In this document: piece by piece, positions 6,020 to 11,419 of the stretch
How the letters are laid out: every line of letters starts with the position of its first letter
Numbering within the stretch: position 1 is the stretch's first letter
Origin: Bacteroidota bacterium
GTDB taxonomy: Bacteria; Bacteroidota; Ignavibacteria; OLB7
DNA length: 64,000 bases
Direction: 5' to 3'
Assembly (NCBI GenBank): GCA_018266795.1
Contig: JAFDZV010000001.1
Span: forward strand, 62,234-126,233
The notes under the pieces: model-generated
What the model was told of the DNA's origin: nothing
What the model saw: only the letters and a program-made list of their open reading frames with translations
The model's database searches: none
Position numbers and translations under genes: made by a program

Positions 6020-6772
6020 GTGAATCTACCCTGGAAGCATGCCATCGTTGTTGGTGCATCCTCGGGCATCGGGGAGGCGATAGCCCGGCGCCTTGTGCGG
6101 GCCGGCTGCCGGGTTGCGTTGATTGCACGCCGGGCCGACCGGCTGGAAGCGATCTGCGCGCAGCTCAATCGCGAGGCCGGCTCGGAGGTTGCCATTGCCG
6201 TTGGGCACGACGTTCACGTGCATGAGGAAATACCCTGGCTGTTCCAGAATTGTGCACTGCGTCTCGGCGGCCTGGATGCAATCTTCTATGCACCCGGCGT
6301 CCTTCCCCGCATCGCTCCCGATGAGTACGATACGGCAACCGATGTCGAAACGATCCAGGTGAATCTGTTGGGCGCAATCGCCTGGCTGAACCAGGCCGCG
6401 CTGCGTTTCGAGAAGACCGGACGTGGAACGATTGTAGGGATCGGTTCGATTGCCGGCGATCGCGGGCGGCGGGGCAATCCGGTGTACTGCACAAGCAAGG
6501 CAGCGCTTGCCACCTACCTGGAGTCGTTGCGAAACCGGCTGGGGCGCAGGGGAGTGAAGGTGGTAACGGCGAAGCCCGGCTTCATCGATACGGAGATGAC
6601 GCACGGCCTCACGGGGATGATCTGGCTGATCTCCGCCGATCGCGCAGCGGAGCTTATCCTCAGGGCCGCGCGGCGTGGGCGCACGACCGCATATATTCCG
6701 GAACGATGGCGGCTCGTGGGGCTGGTAGTGCGCATGATCCCATCGTTTCTCTTCCGGCGACTGAATGTTTGA
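6020..6772 (+). CDS. dprE2: Short-chain dehydrogenase resembling DprE2
   Basis: A 250-residue classical SDR. The GASSGIG cofactor motif is at residues 11-17, and the catalytic pair is Tyr156 and Lys160 in VYCTSK, preceded by a Ser in GIGSIAGD. Start is GTG; no in-frame ATG precedes the Rossmann strand. What singles it out is the C-terminus (RLVGLVVRMIPSFLFRRLNV), which closely matches my recollection of mycobacterial DprE2. The stop is 6 bp before a DprE1-like gene. In mycobacteria DprE2 reduces the keto intermediate of decaprenyl-phospho-ribose epimerisation to the arabinose form. Here the same chemistry on a polyprenyl-phospho-pentose is inferred from similarity plus pairing. Confidence 0.75.
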   Translation: MNLPWKHAIVVGASSGIGEAIARRLVRAGCRVALIARRADRLEAICAQLNREAGSEVAIAVGHDVHVHEEIPWLFQNCALRLGGLDAIFYAPGVLPRIAPDEYDTATDVETIQVNLLGAIAWLNQAALRFEKTGRGTIVGIGSIAGDRGRRGNPVYCTSKAALATYLESLRNRLGRRGVKVVTAKPGFIDTEMTHGLTGMIWLISADRAAELILRAARRGRTTAYIPERWRLVGLVVRMIPSFLFRRLNV

Positions 6773-6778
6773 GAAGGC

Positions 6779-8275
6779 ATGTCCCAACTGACGAGCGAAC
6801 AGATCGCGGCCGGCGAGGCCCGATTCATCCTTCCGGGTGAGAACCTGGAAGTGGTGGAGGGATGGGGGGGCGCATCGAACTCCGTTGCCTACGTTTTTCG
6901 CCCGTCCACGTTCGATGAAGTACGGAGCGTGTTCGAGCTTGCGCGGCAGTCCGGGCGCACCGTTGCGTTCCGCGGCGCGGGACGCAGCTATGGCGACGCG
7001 GCATTGAATGCCGAAAATGCCGTGCTGGACCTCACACGGCTCAACAGGATACTGGCGTGGGATCCTGCCGGCGGCACCATCACTCTCGAGCCGGGCGTCA
7101 CTATCCGGCAGCTCTGGGAATACGTTCTTCCGCATGGGTGGTGGCCGCCCGTTGTGCCGGGCACCATGTACCCGACGCTTGGCGGCTGCCTTGCCATGAA
7201 CATTCACGGCAAGAACAACTACCGGGAGGGGCCGATCGGCGATCACGTGACCGAGTTCGATCTGCTGCTGCCGAACGGTGATCTGAAGCGGTGCTCGCGT
7301 ACCGAGAACGTGGAGCTCTTCGATGCGGCCGTTGGCGGCTTCGGCATCCTGGGCTGCTTCACACGGATCACGCTCCGGATGAAGCGCATCTACTCCGGGC
7401 TTCTGAACGTGGAGGCAATCACCGCCCGATCGCTGGATCACATGGTGGAGATATTCGAGCAGCGCACCGCGGGAGCGGATTACCTCGTGGGCTGGATCGA
7501 TGCGCTCGCCGGCGGCTCGCATGTCGGACGCGGAGTGATCCATGCGGCGAACTACTTGGCCGAAGGGGCCGATCCTCATCCCGAACGGACATTGCGCGTC
7601 GAGAGCCAGCAGCTTCCCGACCGAATACTGGGCATCCTTCCGAAGTCCATGCTATGGCGACTCATGCGTCCGTTCATGAACAACACTGGCGTACGCGTCG
7701 TCAACGGCCTGAAGTATCACGCCAGCGCGCTCCTGGATCGCGGCAGAGTTGTGAGGCAATCGCACGTGGAGTTCGCATTCCTTCTGGATTACGTTCCCAA
7801 CTGGAAGCAGGCATACGGGACCGGCGGTCTGATTCAGTATCAGAGCTTCATCCCGCGCGAGCATGCGGCCGATGTGTTCAGGCGCCAGCTGGTGCTTGCG
7901 CAGGAGGCAGGGTTTCCACCCTACCTTGCAGTGTTCAAGCGCCATCGGGCAGACCGGTTTCTGATGACGCACGGTGTGGACGGCTATTCGCTGGCGCTGG
8001 ACTTCCGGATCACTCCCCGCAATCGGCGTGCGATCTGGGATCTGGCCGCGCAACTGGATGAGATTGTTCTCGCCTCGGGCGGCCGATTTTATTTCGCGAA
8101 GGACAGCACGCTGCAGGCCCAATCGGTTGAGCAGTATCTGGGAAGCGATGCGGTGGAGCGCTTCATGCGTCTGAAGCGCGAATGCGACCCGGAGGGAATC
8201 CTGGAGACGAACCTCTATCGCCGGCTGTTCGGCGCGCGGGCGGGCGACCAGATCTTGTTCAGAGGAGAGCGTTGA
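6779..8275 (+). CDS. dprE1: FAD-dependent oxidase resembling DprE1 (polyprenyl-phospho-ribose 2'-oxidase)
   Basis: A 498-residue VAO/PCMH-type flavoprotein. The FAD-binding part shows GAGRSYGDAALN, LTRLNRIL and NIHGKNNYREGPIGDHV, which match DprE1 motifs. The C-terminal domain keeps the catalytic lysine context FAKDST (Lys441). The position of mycobacterial DprE1 Cys387, the residue covalently trapped by benzothiazinones, appears as Ala406 in GYSLALDF. In mycobacteria DprE1 oxidises decaprenyl-phosphoryl-ribose to the 2'-keto form at the periplasmic face of the membrane. The gene sits 6 bp behind a DprE2-like gene, and the next start follows its stop codon directly, so the three are one transcription unit. 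The exact lipid and sugar substrate here is unknown. Confidence 0.75.
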   Translation: MSQLTSEQIAAGEARFILPGENLEVVEGWGGASNSVAYVFRPSTFDEVRSVFELARQSGRTVAFRGAGRSYGDAALNAENAVLDLTRLNRILAWDPAGGTITLEPGVTIRQLWEYVLPHGWWPPVVPGTMYPTLGGCLAMNIHGKNNYREGPIGDHVTEFDLLLPNGDLKRCSRTENVELFDAAVGGFGILGCFTRITLRMKRIYSGLLNVEAITARSLDHMVEIFEQRTAGADYLVGWIDALAGGSHVGRGVIHAANYLAEGADPHPERTLRVESQQLPDRILGILPKSMLWRLMRPFMNNTGVRVVNGLKYHASALLDRGRVVRQSHVEFAFLLDYVPNWKQAYGTGGLIQYQSFIPREHAADVFRRQLVLAQEAGFPPYLAVFKRHRADRFLMTHGVDGYSLALDFRITPRNRRAIWDLAAQLDEIVLASGGRFYFAKDSTLQAQSVEQYLGSDAVERFMRLKRECDPEGILETNLYRRLFGARAGDQILFRGER

Positions 8276-8833
8276 ATGCGGCGTACCGTGATCACCGTTG
8301 TCTGCACGCTCCTTGCCGTTGTGCTTCTGCAGCTCGCCCTCTACTCCGGATGGATGGTGTTCGGCGGCAGCCGGCCGTTGAAGCCTGCGGAACGTGCGCT
8401 CCTGATTCGCGAAGGGGATTCCGCCATCGCCCATCGTGAGGTTCCCGTGGCTGCCATCGTGTTCTACGGCGACTCGATGATCGGCGTTGGGCACAACACC
8501 GTGCAGCAGGACTCCAACATCGCGGGGCATGCGGAGATCAACGCGATCAACGACGCGATCCGCCATCTCGGGTACGAGCGCTTCATGCGGTTACGAAGGG
8601 ACTCGCTGCGTGTCATCACGACGTTCGAGCCATGCCTGATGTGTCGCGGTGCGCTGCTCGAATACGGGATCAGGCATGTCGAGTTCCTCAAGGGGAAGTC
8701 GCCGTGGTTCTGGCTGCGTGAGGACCTGCGCACCGCGGCATATCAGTGGAAGCGTACGCAGCGTGACAACGGCGGGCTGCAGGATTCGCTCTTCGACGGC
8801 TACCACCGGCGATGGCCAACAACCAATCCATAA
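8276..8833 (+). CDS. Membrane-anchored nucleoside/cytidine deaminase-fold protein
   Basis: A 185-residue protein with the zinc deaminase signature: HAEINAIN (His ligand and catalytic Glu) and PCLMC (two Cys ligands) about 40 residues apart, as in tRNA adenosine or guanine/cytosine deaminases. Unusually it begins with a hydrophobic segment of about 20 residues (VVCTLLAVVLLQLALYSGWMV), so the domain is probably tethered and may sit outside the cytosol. The ATG abuts the TGA of the DprE1-like gene, indicating translational coupling. Its substrate is unknown, and a deaminase is not part of the known arabinose-lipid pathway. Confidence 0.7.
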   Translation: MRRTVITVVCTLLAVVLLQLALYSGWMVFGGSRPLKPAERALLIREGDSAIAHREVPVAAIVFYGDSMIGVGHNTVQQDSNIAGHAEINAINDAIRHLGYERFMRLRRDSLRVITTFEPCLMCRGALLEYGIRHVEFLKGKSPWFWLREDLRTAAYQWKRTQRDNGGLQDSLFDGYHRRWPTTNP

Positions 8834-9437: not shown

Positions 9438-10196
9438 CTACCTGCCGTTGAGTGTCCAGTCGTATTCCTGGAAGGCGATCTTCACTGCATCCGGTGCGGC
9501 CAGCGCCTTCTTCATAGCAGCCGTTCCGTACTTCTTCGCGAACTCCTTCAGTCCGTTGTCGCCGCCGAAGTCCCCCTTGTACCAATCGAAGATCTTCGAA
9601 AGCGAGAGCGTGTTCGTCTTCTCGTCGAACCGGTTCTGTGATGAGGCCAGGTAGGTGGAAGCATTGGCGGCAAGCTGCGCCCGGACGGTCTTGCCGGCGA
9701 ACGCATGCGTCTTGATGGGAGGGCAGCTGCGCGCTGCGCACACCAGTCCGAAATGAATCAGCGGCTCCTTGAACTTCGCACGGATCATCGTGTTCTCGAT
9801 CTCGTTCAAGGTCAGCATCCTGCCCGCCACCTTGAACTTCTTCGCATCGAAGAATCCCTTCACGTCGGTCGGCTTCTTCATGCCGGGATTGTCCAGCACG
9901 TTCCGGATCACGAGCGCATTGTAGGCATTGAGCCAGAAGGCAAGCTGTTCGTTCGACGGGAGGGAGGTGATCGATGCTGTCTCGAGCGATTTGAGATAAA
10001 CCGCGAAGTCATCGTTGTTCTTGAACTTGCTGTAATCCACGCGGCCGTTGGCCACGGCTGTGGAGAGGAGATGATCGAACTTCGAATGATCGAACGTGGC
10101 AGCAGCATCCTTTGCCGCCGCCGGGGCGATGAGTCCAACGGCGAGAGCAAGCATCACGATGATCGGACGCGCATGTGTCGAAAGTCTGTGTGTCAT
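9438..10196 (-). CDS. DUF547-domain secreted protein
   Basis: A 252-residue protein with a signal peptide (IIVMLALAVGLIAPAAA) and a DUF547 core: FDHLLSTAVANGRVDY, NEQLAFWLNAYNALVIRNVL, the Cys-containing FGLVCAARSCPPI, and a late KIFDWYKGDFGG. DUF547 proteins are widespread in the periplasm of Gram-negative bacteria. The conserved Cys/His/Trp pattern has suggested a hydrolase-like fold, but no function is established. Convergent with the preceding operon across a bidirectional terminator. Confidence 0.88.
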   Translation of the reverse strand: MTHRLSTHARPIIVMLALAVGLIAPAAAKDAAATFDHSKFDHLLSTAVANGRVDYSKFKNNDDFAVYLKSLETASITSLPSNEQLAFWLNAYNALVIRNVLDNPGMKKPTDVKGFFDAKKFKVAGRMLTLNEIENTMIRAKFKEPLIHFGLVCAARSCPPIKTHAFAGKTVRAQLAANASTYLASSQNRFDEKTNTLSLSKIFDWYKGDFGGDNGLKEFAKKYGTAAMKKALAAPDAVKIAFQEYDWTLNGR

Positions 10197-10268
10197 CGGT
10201 TGATTCCTTGAGTTTGTCGTCGATCGCGGCCGAGCGCGGGGTTGCCGGGCTTCGTGCGATGCGCGGCA

Positions 10269-10817
10269 TCATTGCCGCATCCATGGGGGGCTGGTGCGTT
10301 CGATCAGCGGGAACACCGGACAGTCGTGCTCGTGTGCGCCCGGCAGGTAGCCGGTGCTGACCAGAAACTCGTTCACGATTTCGCCACCAGTAAAAACAAA
10401 TGTGCGTTTGAACAGCCGGCGCCACTCTTCACGTGAGCGCGGATGGTGCCGCTCCAGCCATCCGGCGAACGAACCGAACTCCTCGCGCAGCGCAACGATG
10501 CGTCGCGCGTTCTCGATGACGGCGTTCACCTTCAGGCGATTCCGTACGATGCCGGCATCGGCAAGCAGGCGTTCCCTCTCGGGATCTCCGTATGCGGCAA
10601 CGCGATCGATTACAAACCCGTCGAACGCCCGATGGAAGTTCTCCTTCTTCTTCAGGATCGTAATCCAGGAGAGTCCCGCCTGGTTGATCTCGAGACAGAG
10701 ACGTTCAAAGAGCGCGTTCTCGTCTGTGAGCGGGAACCCGTACTCGGTATCGTGATACGATCGGTGCGGCTCGTCGGGAGCCATGCTGCGAACGGCGAGG
10801 CAGTAGCTTGAGGCCAT
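10269..10817 (-). CDS. tag: DNA-3-methyladenine glycosylase I
   Basis: A cytosolic base-excision repair enzyme that removes 3-methyladenine. Family marks are YHDTEYGFPLTDENALFERL, LEINQAGLSWITILKKKENF and IVRNRLKVNAVIENA. The C-terminal HEHDC supplies the His-x3-Cys zinc pair; the N-terminal Cys ligand would be Cys6, which is why I keep the longest start rather than Met12. The Cys-His spacing at the N-terminus is about three residues longer than in E. coli Tag, so zinc binding should be checked. 182 residues is normal. Confidence 0.9.
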   Translation of the reverse strand: MASSYCLAVRSMAPDEPHRSYHDTEYGFPLTDENALFERLCLEINQAGLSWITILKKKENFHRAFDGFVIDRVAAYGDPERERLLADAGIVRNRLKVNAVIENARRIVALREEFGSFAGWLERHHPRSREEWRRLFKRTFVFTGGEIVNEFLVSTGYLPGAHEHDCPVFPLIERTSPPWMRQ

Positions 10818-10948
10818 CTCTTCACTTCATCCGGAATTTCTTAGCTTGCCCGCCTTGAACCCGCTCCGTGCCATCAACCGCGAGGCTTGGAACACGAACG
10901 GCCGGCGAGGTTTGATCACGCTCATCGACTGACAGCAGAAAGAGAATC

Positions 10949-11419
10949 ATGCCGACGATAATCGAGAGTTCATTCGAGACAACCGGGCATCGGTATGCCA
11001 TCACCGTAAGCCGGTGGAACGAATTTATCACAAAACGATTGCTTGAAGGGGCGCTCGACTGCATGAGAATGCATGGGGTGGATGATTCCGGCATCACGGT
11101 GGTTCACTGTCCGGGCGCGTTCGAGCTGCCGCTGGTTGTCCACAAGCTTGCCGGCTCCGGGCTGTACGATGCCGTGCTGGCGCTCGGCGCGGTGATCCGC
11201 GGAGCAACGCCCCACTTCGAACACGTGGCCGGGCAGGCGGCGAACGGCGTTGCCTCCGCCGCCCTGGCAACCGGTGTGCCCTGCATGTTCGGTGTGCTGA
11301 CGGTGGACACGATCGAACAGGCGATTGAACGTGCCGGCTCCAAGGCCGGGAACAAGGGATGGGAGGCGGCGATGGCCGCCATCGAGATGGTGAACCTGCT
11401 CCGCGCCATCCCCGGTTAA
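10949..11419 (+). CDS. ribH: 6,7-dimethyl-8-ribityllumazine synthase
   Basis: Penultimate enzyme of riboflavin synthesis. It condenses 5-amino-6-ribitylamino-uracil with dihydroxybutanone phosphate in the cytosol and usually forms a 60-mer or pentamer. Clear motifs: [42 protein letters not shown] with the catalytic His, [23 protein letters not shown], and a typical C-terminal AAIEMVNLL. 156 residues is standard. No FMN riboswitch is recognisable in the 130-bp leader and no other rib gene is nearby. Confidence 0.96.

Follow-up and report, generated by a model that had tools for sequence, protein, structure and literature searches.

Most of what is known about lipid-linked D-arabinofuranose comes from the mycobacterial wall. 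There the polyprenyl-phosphoribose synthase (PPPRS) provides the precursor for the substrate of DprE1, whose reaction is the target of tuberculosis drugs. Outside Actinobacteria, orthologues of DprE1 and DprE2 occur in Pseudomonas aeruginosa, and a pathway made of PPPRS and these orthologues has been proposed to provide the D-arabinofuranose donor for type IV pilin glycosylation (PMC11127046, PMC9993113), in agreement with the mention of pilin glycosylation systems in the preliminary description of the locus studied here. In Citrobacter, polyprenyl-phospho-pentofuranose pathways with different epimerases have been established (PMC11127046). The pathway that we propose below resembles the three-component side-chain systems of Citrobacter youngae (GT136) in that PPPRS makes polyprenyl-phospho-pentofuranose, an epimerase can set the sugar and a GT-C enzyme transfers it, but those systems have a single SDR epimerase or none, a PPPRS-phosphatase fusion, a compact cluster and a MATE flippase (PMC11127046).

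Here we analysed a window of 64,000 nucleotides (the whole stretch of DNA under study), which is part of contig C11 in the 5.97 Mb genome, reported as 100% complete, of a Kapabacteria-type (Chlorobiota) bacterium. The three ORFs of interest lie exactly where the preliminary description placed them (Table 1), the oxidase ORF beginning 6 bp past the SDR stop and the deaminase ORF at the base right after the oxidase stop. The short junction between SDR and oxidase is consistent with a single transcript, and the neighbours upstream are genes for an extracellular solute-binding protein and a cystathionine gamma-synthase-type enzyme. Pfam assigned the SDR to adh_short (140 bits), the oxidase to FAD_binding_4 (113 bits) and the deaminase to dCMP_cyt_deam_1 (54 bits). 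Very probably, SDR and oxidase together act as a 2'-epimerase that converts polyprenyl-phospho-ribose to polyprenyl-phospho-arabinofuranose, with the deaminase as an unrelated neighbour. The order of SDR first and oxidase second is the signature of the clade that we call type A, whereas in type B, to which most DprE1-like genes in the phylum of the window belong, the oxidase comes first and the SDR second.

Table 1. Features of the locus and their positions in the window
Feature	Position	Strand	Remarks
SDR reductase, DprE2-like (type A), predicted polyprenyl-phospho-2-keto-pentofuranose 2-reductase	6020..6772	+	GTG start, 250 aa
Stop codon of the SDR (6770-6772) with the 6-bp gap before the oxidase ATG	6770..6778	+	
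FAD oxidase, DprE1-like (type A), predicted polyprenyl-phospho-ribofuranose 2'-oxidase	6779..8275	+	498 aa
CDA-fold (TadA/MafB19-like) zinc deaminase, membrane-anchored	8276..8833	+	185 aa

The pair shares with mycobacterial DprE1/DprE2 the combination of an FAD oxidase with an SDR, the fold, the invariant catalytic positions and the presence of a PPPRS (Rv3806c-type) in the genome. It differs in that type A oxidases are only about 30% identical to the mycobacterial enzyme, the SDR precedes the oxidase, alanine replaces Cys387, both proteins score below the equivalog cut-offs and the pair in the window is unlinked to PPPRS. The likeness to the pilin system of P. aeruginosa, taken from its published description, lies in a lipid-linked arabinofuranose donor outside Actinobacteria, the acceptor there being pilin. 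Since such donors have already been proposed, the novelty here lies in the existence of the type A clade, in the reversed order of its genes, in its distribution and in PPPRS being usually unlinked to it. No paper describing this clade was found in a literature search of incomplete coverage, and searches combining DprE1 with Chloroflexi and arabinofuranosyl with Ignavibacter gave nothing relevant, most subscription papers lying outside the coverage.

The oxidase is DprE1-like by family model, by sequence match to PDB entries, by fold and by the core catalytic positions that it keeps. Its best match among NCBI families was the DprE1 model NF053785 (308.6 bits, model positions 4-447 of 449), some 240 bits above the second-best family, sugar 1,4-lactone oxidase (70 bits). 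Because this score is below the cut-off of 500 bits, the protein is not filed as an NCBI DprE1 equivalog, and the type B oxidases (399-470 bits) likewise fall under that value. Among the sequences of solved structures, the best DprE1 entry scored 207 bits as against 59 for the next protein, and when the AlphaFold2 model (pLDDT 91) was searched against the PDB with Foldseek the first 49 matches were all DprE1 (E down to 1.7e-40), followed by galactonolactone dehydrogenase (2.6e-24). In Mtb DprE1 numbering, Y60, H132, G133, K134, N135, W230, Q334, Q336, K367, Y415 and K418 are invariant in 84/84 type A oxidases, and Y60, H132, K134, W230, Q334, Q336, K367, Y415 and K418 in 26/26 of type B. The active site of type A nevertheless carries four substitutions relative to Mtb DprE1 (F369 to H, N385 to S, C387 to A and S228 to V), and therefore another pentose or lipid is possible. 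Cys387 of the mycobacterial enzyme is the site at which benzothiazinones bind covalently and marks drug sensitivity, and it is not known to be required for the reaction. With alanine at this position in all 84 type A sequences (alanine or threonine in type B), type A oxidases are predicted to escape covalent inhibition by benzothiazinones. Assignment as a generic alditol oxidase was rejected, PF04030 (ALO) giving no match to the window oxidase; the PF04030 match of this genome is a different gene on another contig.

For the SDR the best NCBI model was PRK07102 (201 bits), followed by PRK07024, PRK08251 and the DprE2 model NF053786 (136 bits, against an equivalog cut-off of 250 that the type B SDRs, at 188-206 bits, also miss). 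PRK07102 is the same model that SDRs adjoining type B DprE1 genes in this phylum pass above its cut-off (321-358 bits, three tested). Among the matches listed, DprE2 (21gq_C) was the sole PDB match aligned through the C-terminus, and the likeness of the C-terminus to DprE2, noted beforehand, is thus real, but it is not diagnostic by itself because other SDRs have similar tails. The tree of 77 SDRs, whose outgroup was 22 other SDRs of related genomes (a limited sample, and a quick search), joined type A, type B and mycobacterial DprE2 in one group apart from the generic SDRs (SH-aLRT 99), with a support of 100 for type B plus Mtb DprE2. The motif AGDRGR was present in 58/79 type A and 16/23 type B SDRs and in 0/23 other SDRs.

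A scan of genomes recovered 80 loci with oxidases 50-71% identical to that of the window, whose record titles name Chlorobiota/Ignavibacteria, Armatimonadota (Chthonomonas calidirosea included, with the pair in the MAG record L033), Sumerlaeota, Chloroflexota, Planctomycetota and a few other labels. Of the 83 type A loci, 78 also yielded an SDR belonging to the type A clade; in four of the other five the oxidase sits on the edge of a contig or very close to it, and the fifth (L044) lacks an adjacent copy. The adjacency of SDR and oxidase is far beyond chance, and all four family relatives of the host (L006-L009) possess the pair. Neither of the outcomes named beforehand as refuting the proposal, matches to generic alditol oxidases or loss of the pair from related genomes, was thus seen. 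Apparent SDR-oxidase fusions at some loci were discarded, being out-of-frame extensions of ORF calls. Distances among oxidases and among SDRs correlate over 78 type A loci (Mantel r 0.74, p 0.001), which shows co-inheritance of the two genes, although shared species history could also give such a correlation. Type B pairs belong to the same two protein families (a DprE1-like oxidase and a PRK07102 SDR), with the same predicted reaction, but place the oxidase first, often have PPPRS adjacent and are 34-40% identical to Mtb DprE1, compared with 27-30% for type A; their oxidases are 30-36% identical to that of the window. The oxidase tree, left unrooted because the FAD proteins of the host's own genome did not serve as an outgroup (a branch of length 10 and one or more rows read in the wrong frame), separated type A from type B plus Mtb DprE1 by a branch with support of 100. 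Judged by these sequences, type A is a deep sister clade of canonical DprE1/DprE2 present in at least five bacterial phyla. The proposal of a DprE1/DprE2-like pair is hence upheld by profiles, fold, trees, catalytic residues and the co-occurrence and linkage with PPPRS described below, but has to be amended to a sister clade with reversed gene order that misses the equivalog cut-offs. Many genomes of the phylum of the window also carry DprE1-DprE2 pairs in the canonical order (L106-L131), many of these pairs adjoining PPPRS, and lipid-linked arabinose synthesis is therefore predicted to be common there. In the Chloroflexota sample, two genomes encode more than one DprE1-like oxidase (G372, 49% and 36% identity to that of the window; G468, 45%, 44% and 34%), possibly with different substrates.

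The genome of the window encodes a PPPRS (266.5 bits, cut-off 234) on a different contig (C1) from the SDR-oxidase pair. PPPRS was found in 47 of the 50 type A genomes searched (40 above the cut-off), with no match in the other three, and many genomes with PPPRS are devoid of the pair. DprE1-like genes and PPPRS were associated both in the phylum of the window (37/51 vs 38/196, P = 2e-12) and in Chloroflexota (37/40 vs 86/161, P = 1e-6), these figures mixing types A and B and being uncorrected for phylogeny. Direct linkage is better evidence than these associations. Of the 37 genomes of the window's phylum that encode both, 24 have the PPPRS gene no more than 1.5 kb away from the oxidase gene, every one of type B. 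Linkage to type A was seen in five Armatimonadota-type loci, where PPPRS is directly 3' of the oxidase and the ends of the two genes overlap. It was also seen in two Ignavibacteria loci, where PPPRS adjoins the pair on the opposite strand together with two GT-C proteins; four more Ignavibacteria-type regions show the same order of PPPRS and two GT-C genes. In Chloroflexota type A genomes (L192, L195, L196, L197, L199, L201, L206, L212, L215 and L221) the phosphoribosyltransferase gene adjoins a gene for a GHMP (mevalonate-type) kinase, which suggests coupling to the supply of the isoprenoid carrier. PPPRS is also close to a methylmalonyl-CoA mutase gene both in the genome of the window and in Ignavibacteria (L098:9583-13439; L189, L190, L208, L209, L017 and L059), a common neighbour that suggests orthologous PPPRS loci.

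Candidates for the final transfer came from the GT-C proteins. For one of the two GT-C families in the Ignavibacteria loci (profile A1), AftB was the only meaningful sequence match in the PDB (E 1.7e-9). Its predicted structure (pLDDT 74) has the GT-C fold, which alone does not settle the donor because ArnT and oligosaccharyltransferases came first and AftB only at rank 11; this protein is a possible arabinosyltransferase candidate on sequence grounds. In a locus of the same genus as the host (L006), an ArnT-like GT-C (PMT_2, 585 aa, 9468-11225) lies directly 3' of the oxidase and is a candidate transferase for the product sugar; it was not found in the genome of the window by a search run without a positive control. 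No clear arabinosyltransferase was identified in that genome, which does encode a distant GT-C (L241, E 1.4e-11 to profile A1) with no AftB match of its own and no match to a specific arabinosyltransferase.

The basis for the pair was computed, namely its family, fold, catalytic residues and conserved pairing and the PPPRS in the genome. From it we infer the substrate, stereochemistry, flipping, final sugar, lipid carrier and acceptor of the following scheme. The PPPRS pathway would supply polyprenyl-phospho-ribofuranose to the pair, the FAD oxidase would take the C2' hydroxyl of this lipid-linked pentofuranose to a ketone, and the SDR would reduce the 2'-ketone with NAD(P)H from the opposite face to give polyprenyl-phospho-D-arabinofuranose, which a GT-C transferase may use outside the membrane. 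Epimerisation at C2' outside Actinobacteria, as put forward in the preliminary description, is well supported by inference because PPPRS is present or linked, the proteins are of the DprE1/DprE2-type family and an AftB-like GT-C lies beside the pair in the Ignavibacteria operon; the pair itself is not the canonical DprE1-DprE2. More tentatively, at chances that we would place slightly below even, type A pairs may represent a widespread and hitherto undescribed arabinofuranose-glycan pathway, composed of PPPRS, a reversed DprE2-DprE1 pair and an AftB-like or ArnT-like GT-C, that would build envelope glycans with arabinofuranose in Chlorobiota/Ignavibacteria, Armatimonadota, Sumerlaeota, Chloroflexota and Planctomycetota, would have split early from the actinobacterial pathway and would likely be insensitive to covalent benzothiazinones. 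Were this true, the sister clade in five other phyla would make the lipid-linked D-arabinofuranose donor far commoner than thought, arabinose-containing surface glycans would be predicted in phyla with little-studied envelopes, and type A would offer natural DprE1 variants without the benzothiazinone-reactive cysteine.

The pair could also act on a polyprenyl-phospho-pentofuranose with a substrate or product unlike the mycobacterial one (another pentose, another lipid, or a 2-keto intermediate only). The deep separate clade (branch support 100), the low identity to Mtb DprE1 (about 30%) with the replacements F369H, N385S and C387A, and the fact that different epimerases diversify polyprenyl-phospho-ribofuranose (PMC11127046) all fit such a change, but H132, K134, K418, Q334 and Q336 are kept in all type A sequences, the region of N385 and C387 is changed in type B too and the transferase in the Ignavibacteria operon is AftB-like, so that we consider it unlikely. 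A generic alditol or aldonolactone oxidase working with a generic SDR in a catabolic or redox operon, with no lipid-linked sugar involved, appears very improbable: FAD_binding_4 and adh_short are indeed broad families, and the solute-binding protein and cystathionine gamma-synthase-type genes upstream would suit such an operon, but this reading is opposed by the lead of 240 bits that DprE1 has over every other oxidase family, the lack of a PF04030 match in the window oxidase, the results of fold and tree analyses and the co-occurrence with PPPRS.

The 2'-epimerase reading has two members, whereas the preliminary description added the anchored zinc deaminase as a third, which might act, for example, on a nucleoside-like or amino-sugar lipid intermediate. 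The protein has intact HAE and PCxxC motifs in a CDA fold. Its N-terminus holds one segment of strong hydrophobicity (KD19 = 2.57 at residue 4), of which SDR and oxidase have none, in line with the anchoring described beforehand. This anchoring or export, and a start codon that abuts the oxidase stop, speak for membership. Functional membership, however, is scarcely credible, as no homologue was found in the 80 related loci (0/80). In the window the deaminase fills the slot that separates the oxidase from the gene of a small, conserved lipoprotein. This slot is occupied in the same-genus L006 by the GT-C, is empty in L007 and L008 and contains an unidentified stretch in L009; the deaminase is thus missing from it in all four relatives, whose flanking genes are those of the window. 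Its closest family relative, moreover, is a lipoprotein-like protein from another genome of the family, in an unrelated context (L101:6640-7221, minus strand). The deaminase was rejected as a component of the system and is best regarded as a lineage-specific neighbour outside the conserved pair. This CDA-fold family is apparently exported, being membrane-anchored in the window and lipoprotein-like in L101, and such a location beyond the cytoplasm is unusual for a deaminase.
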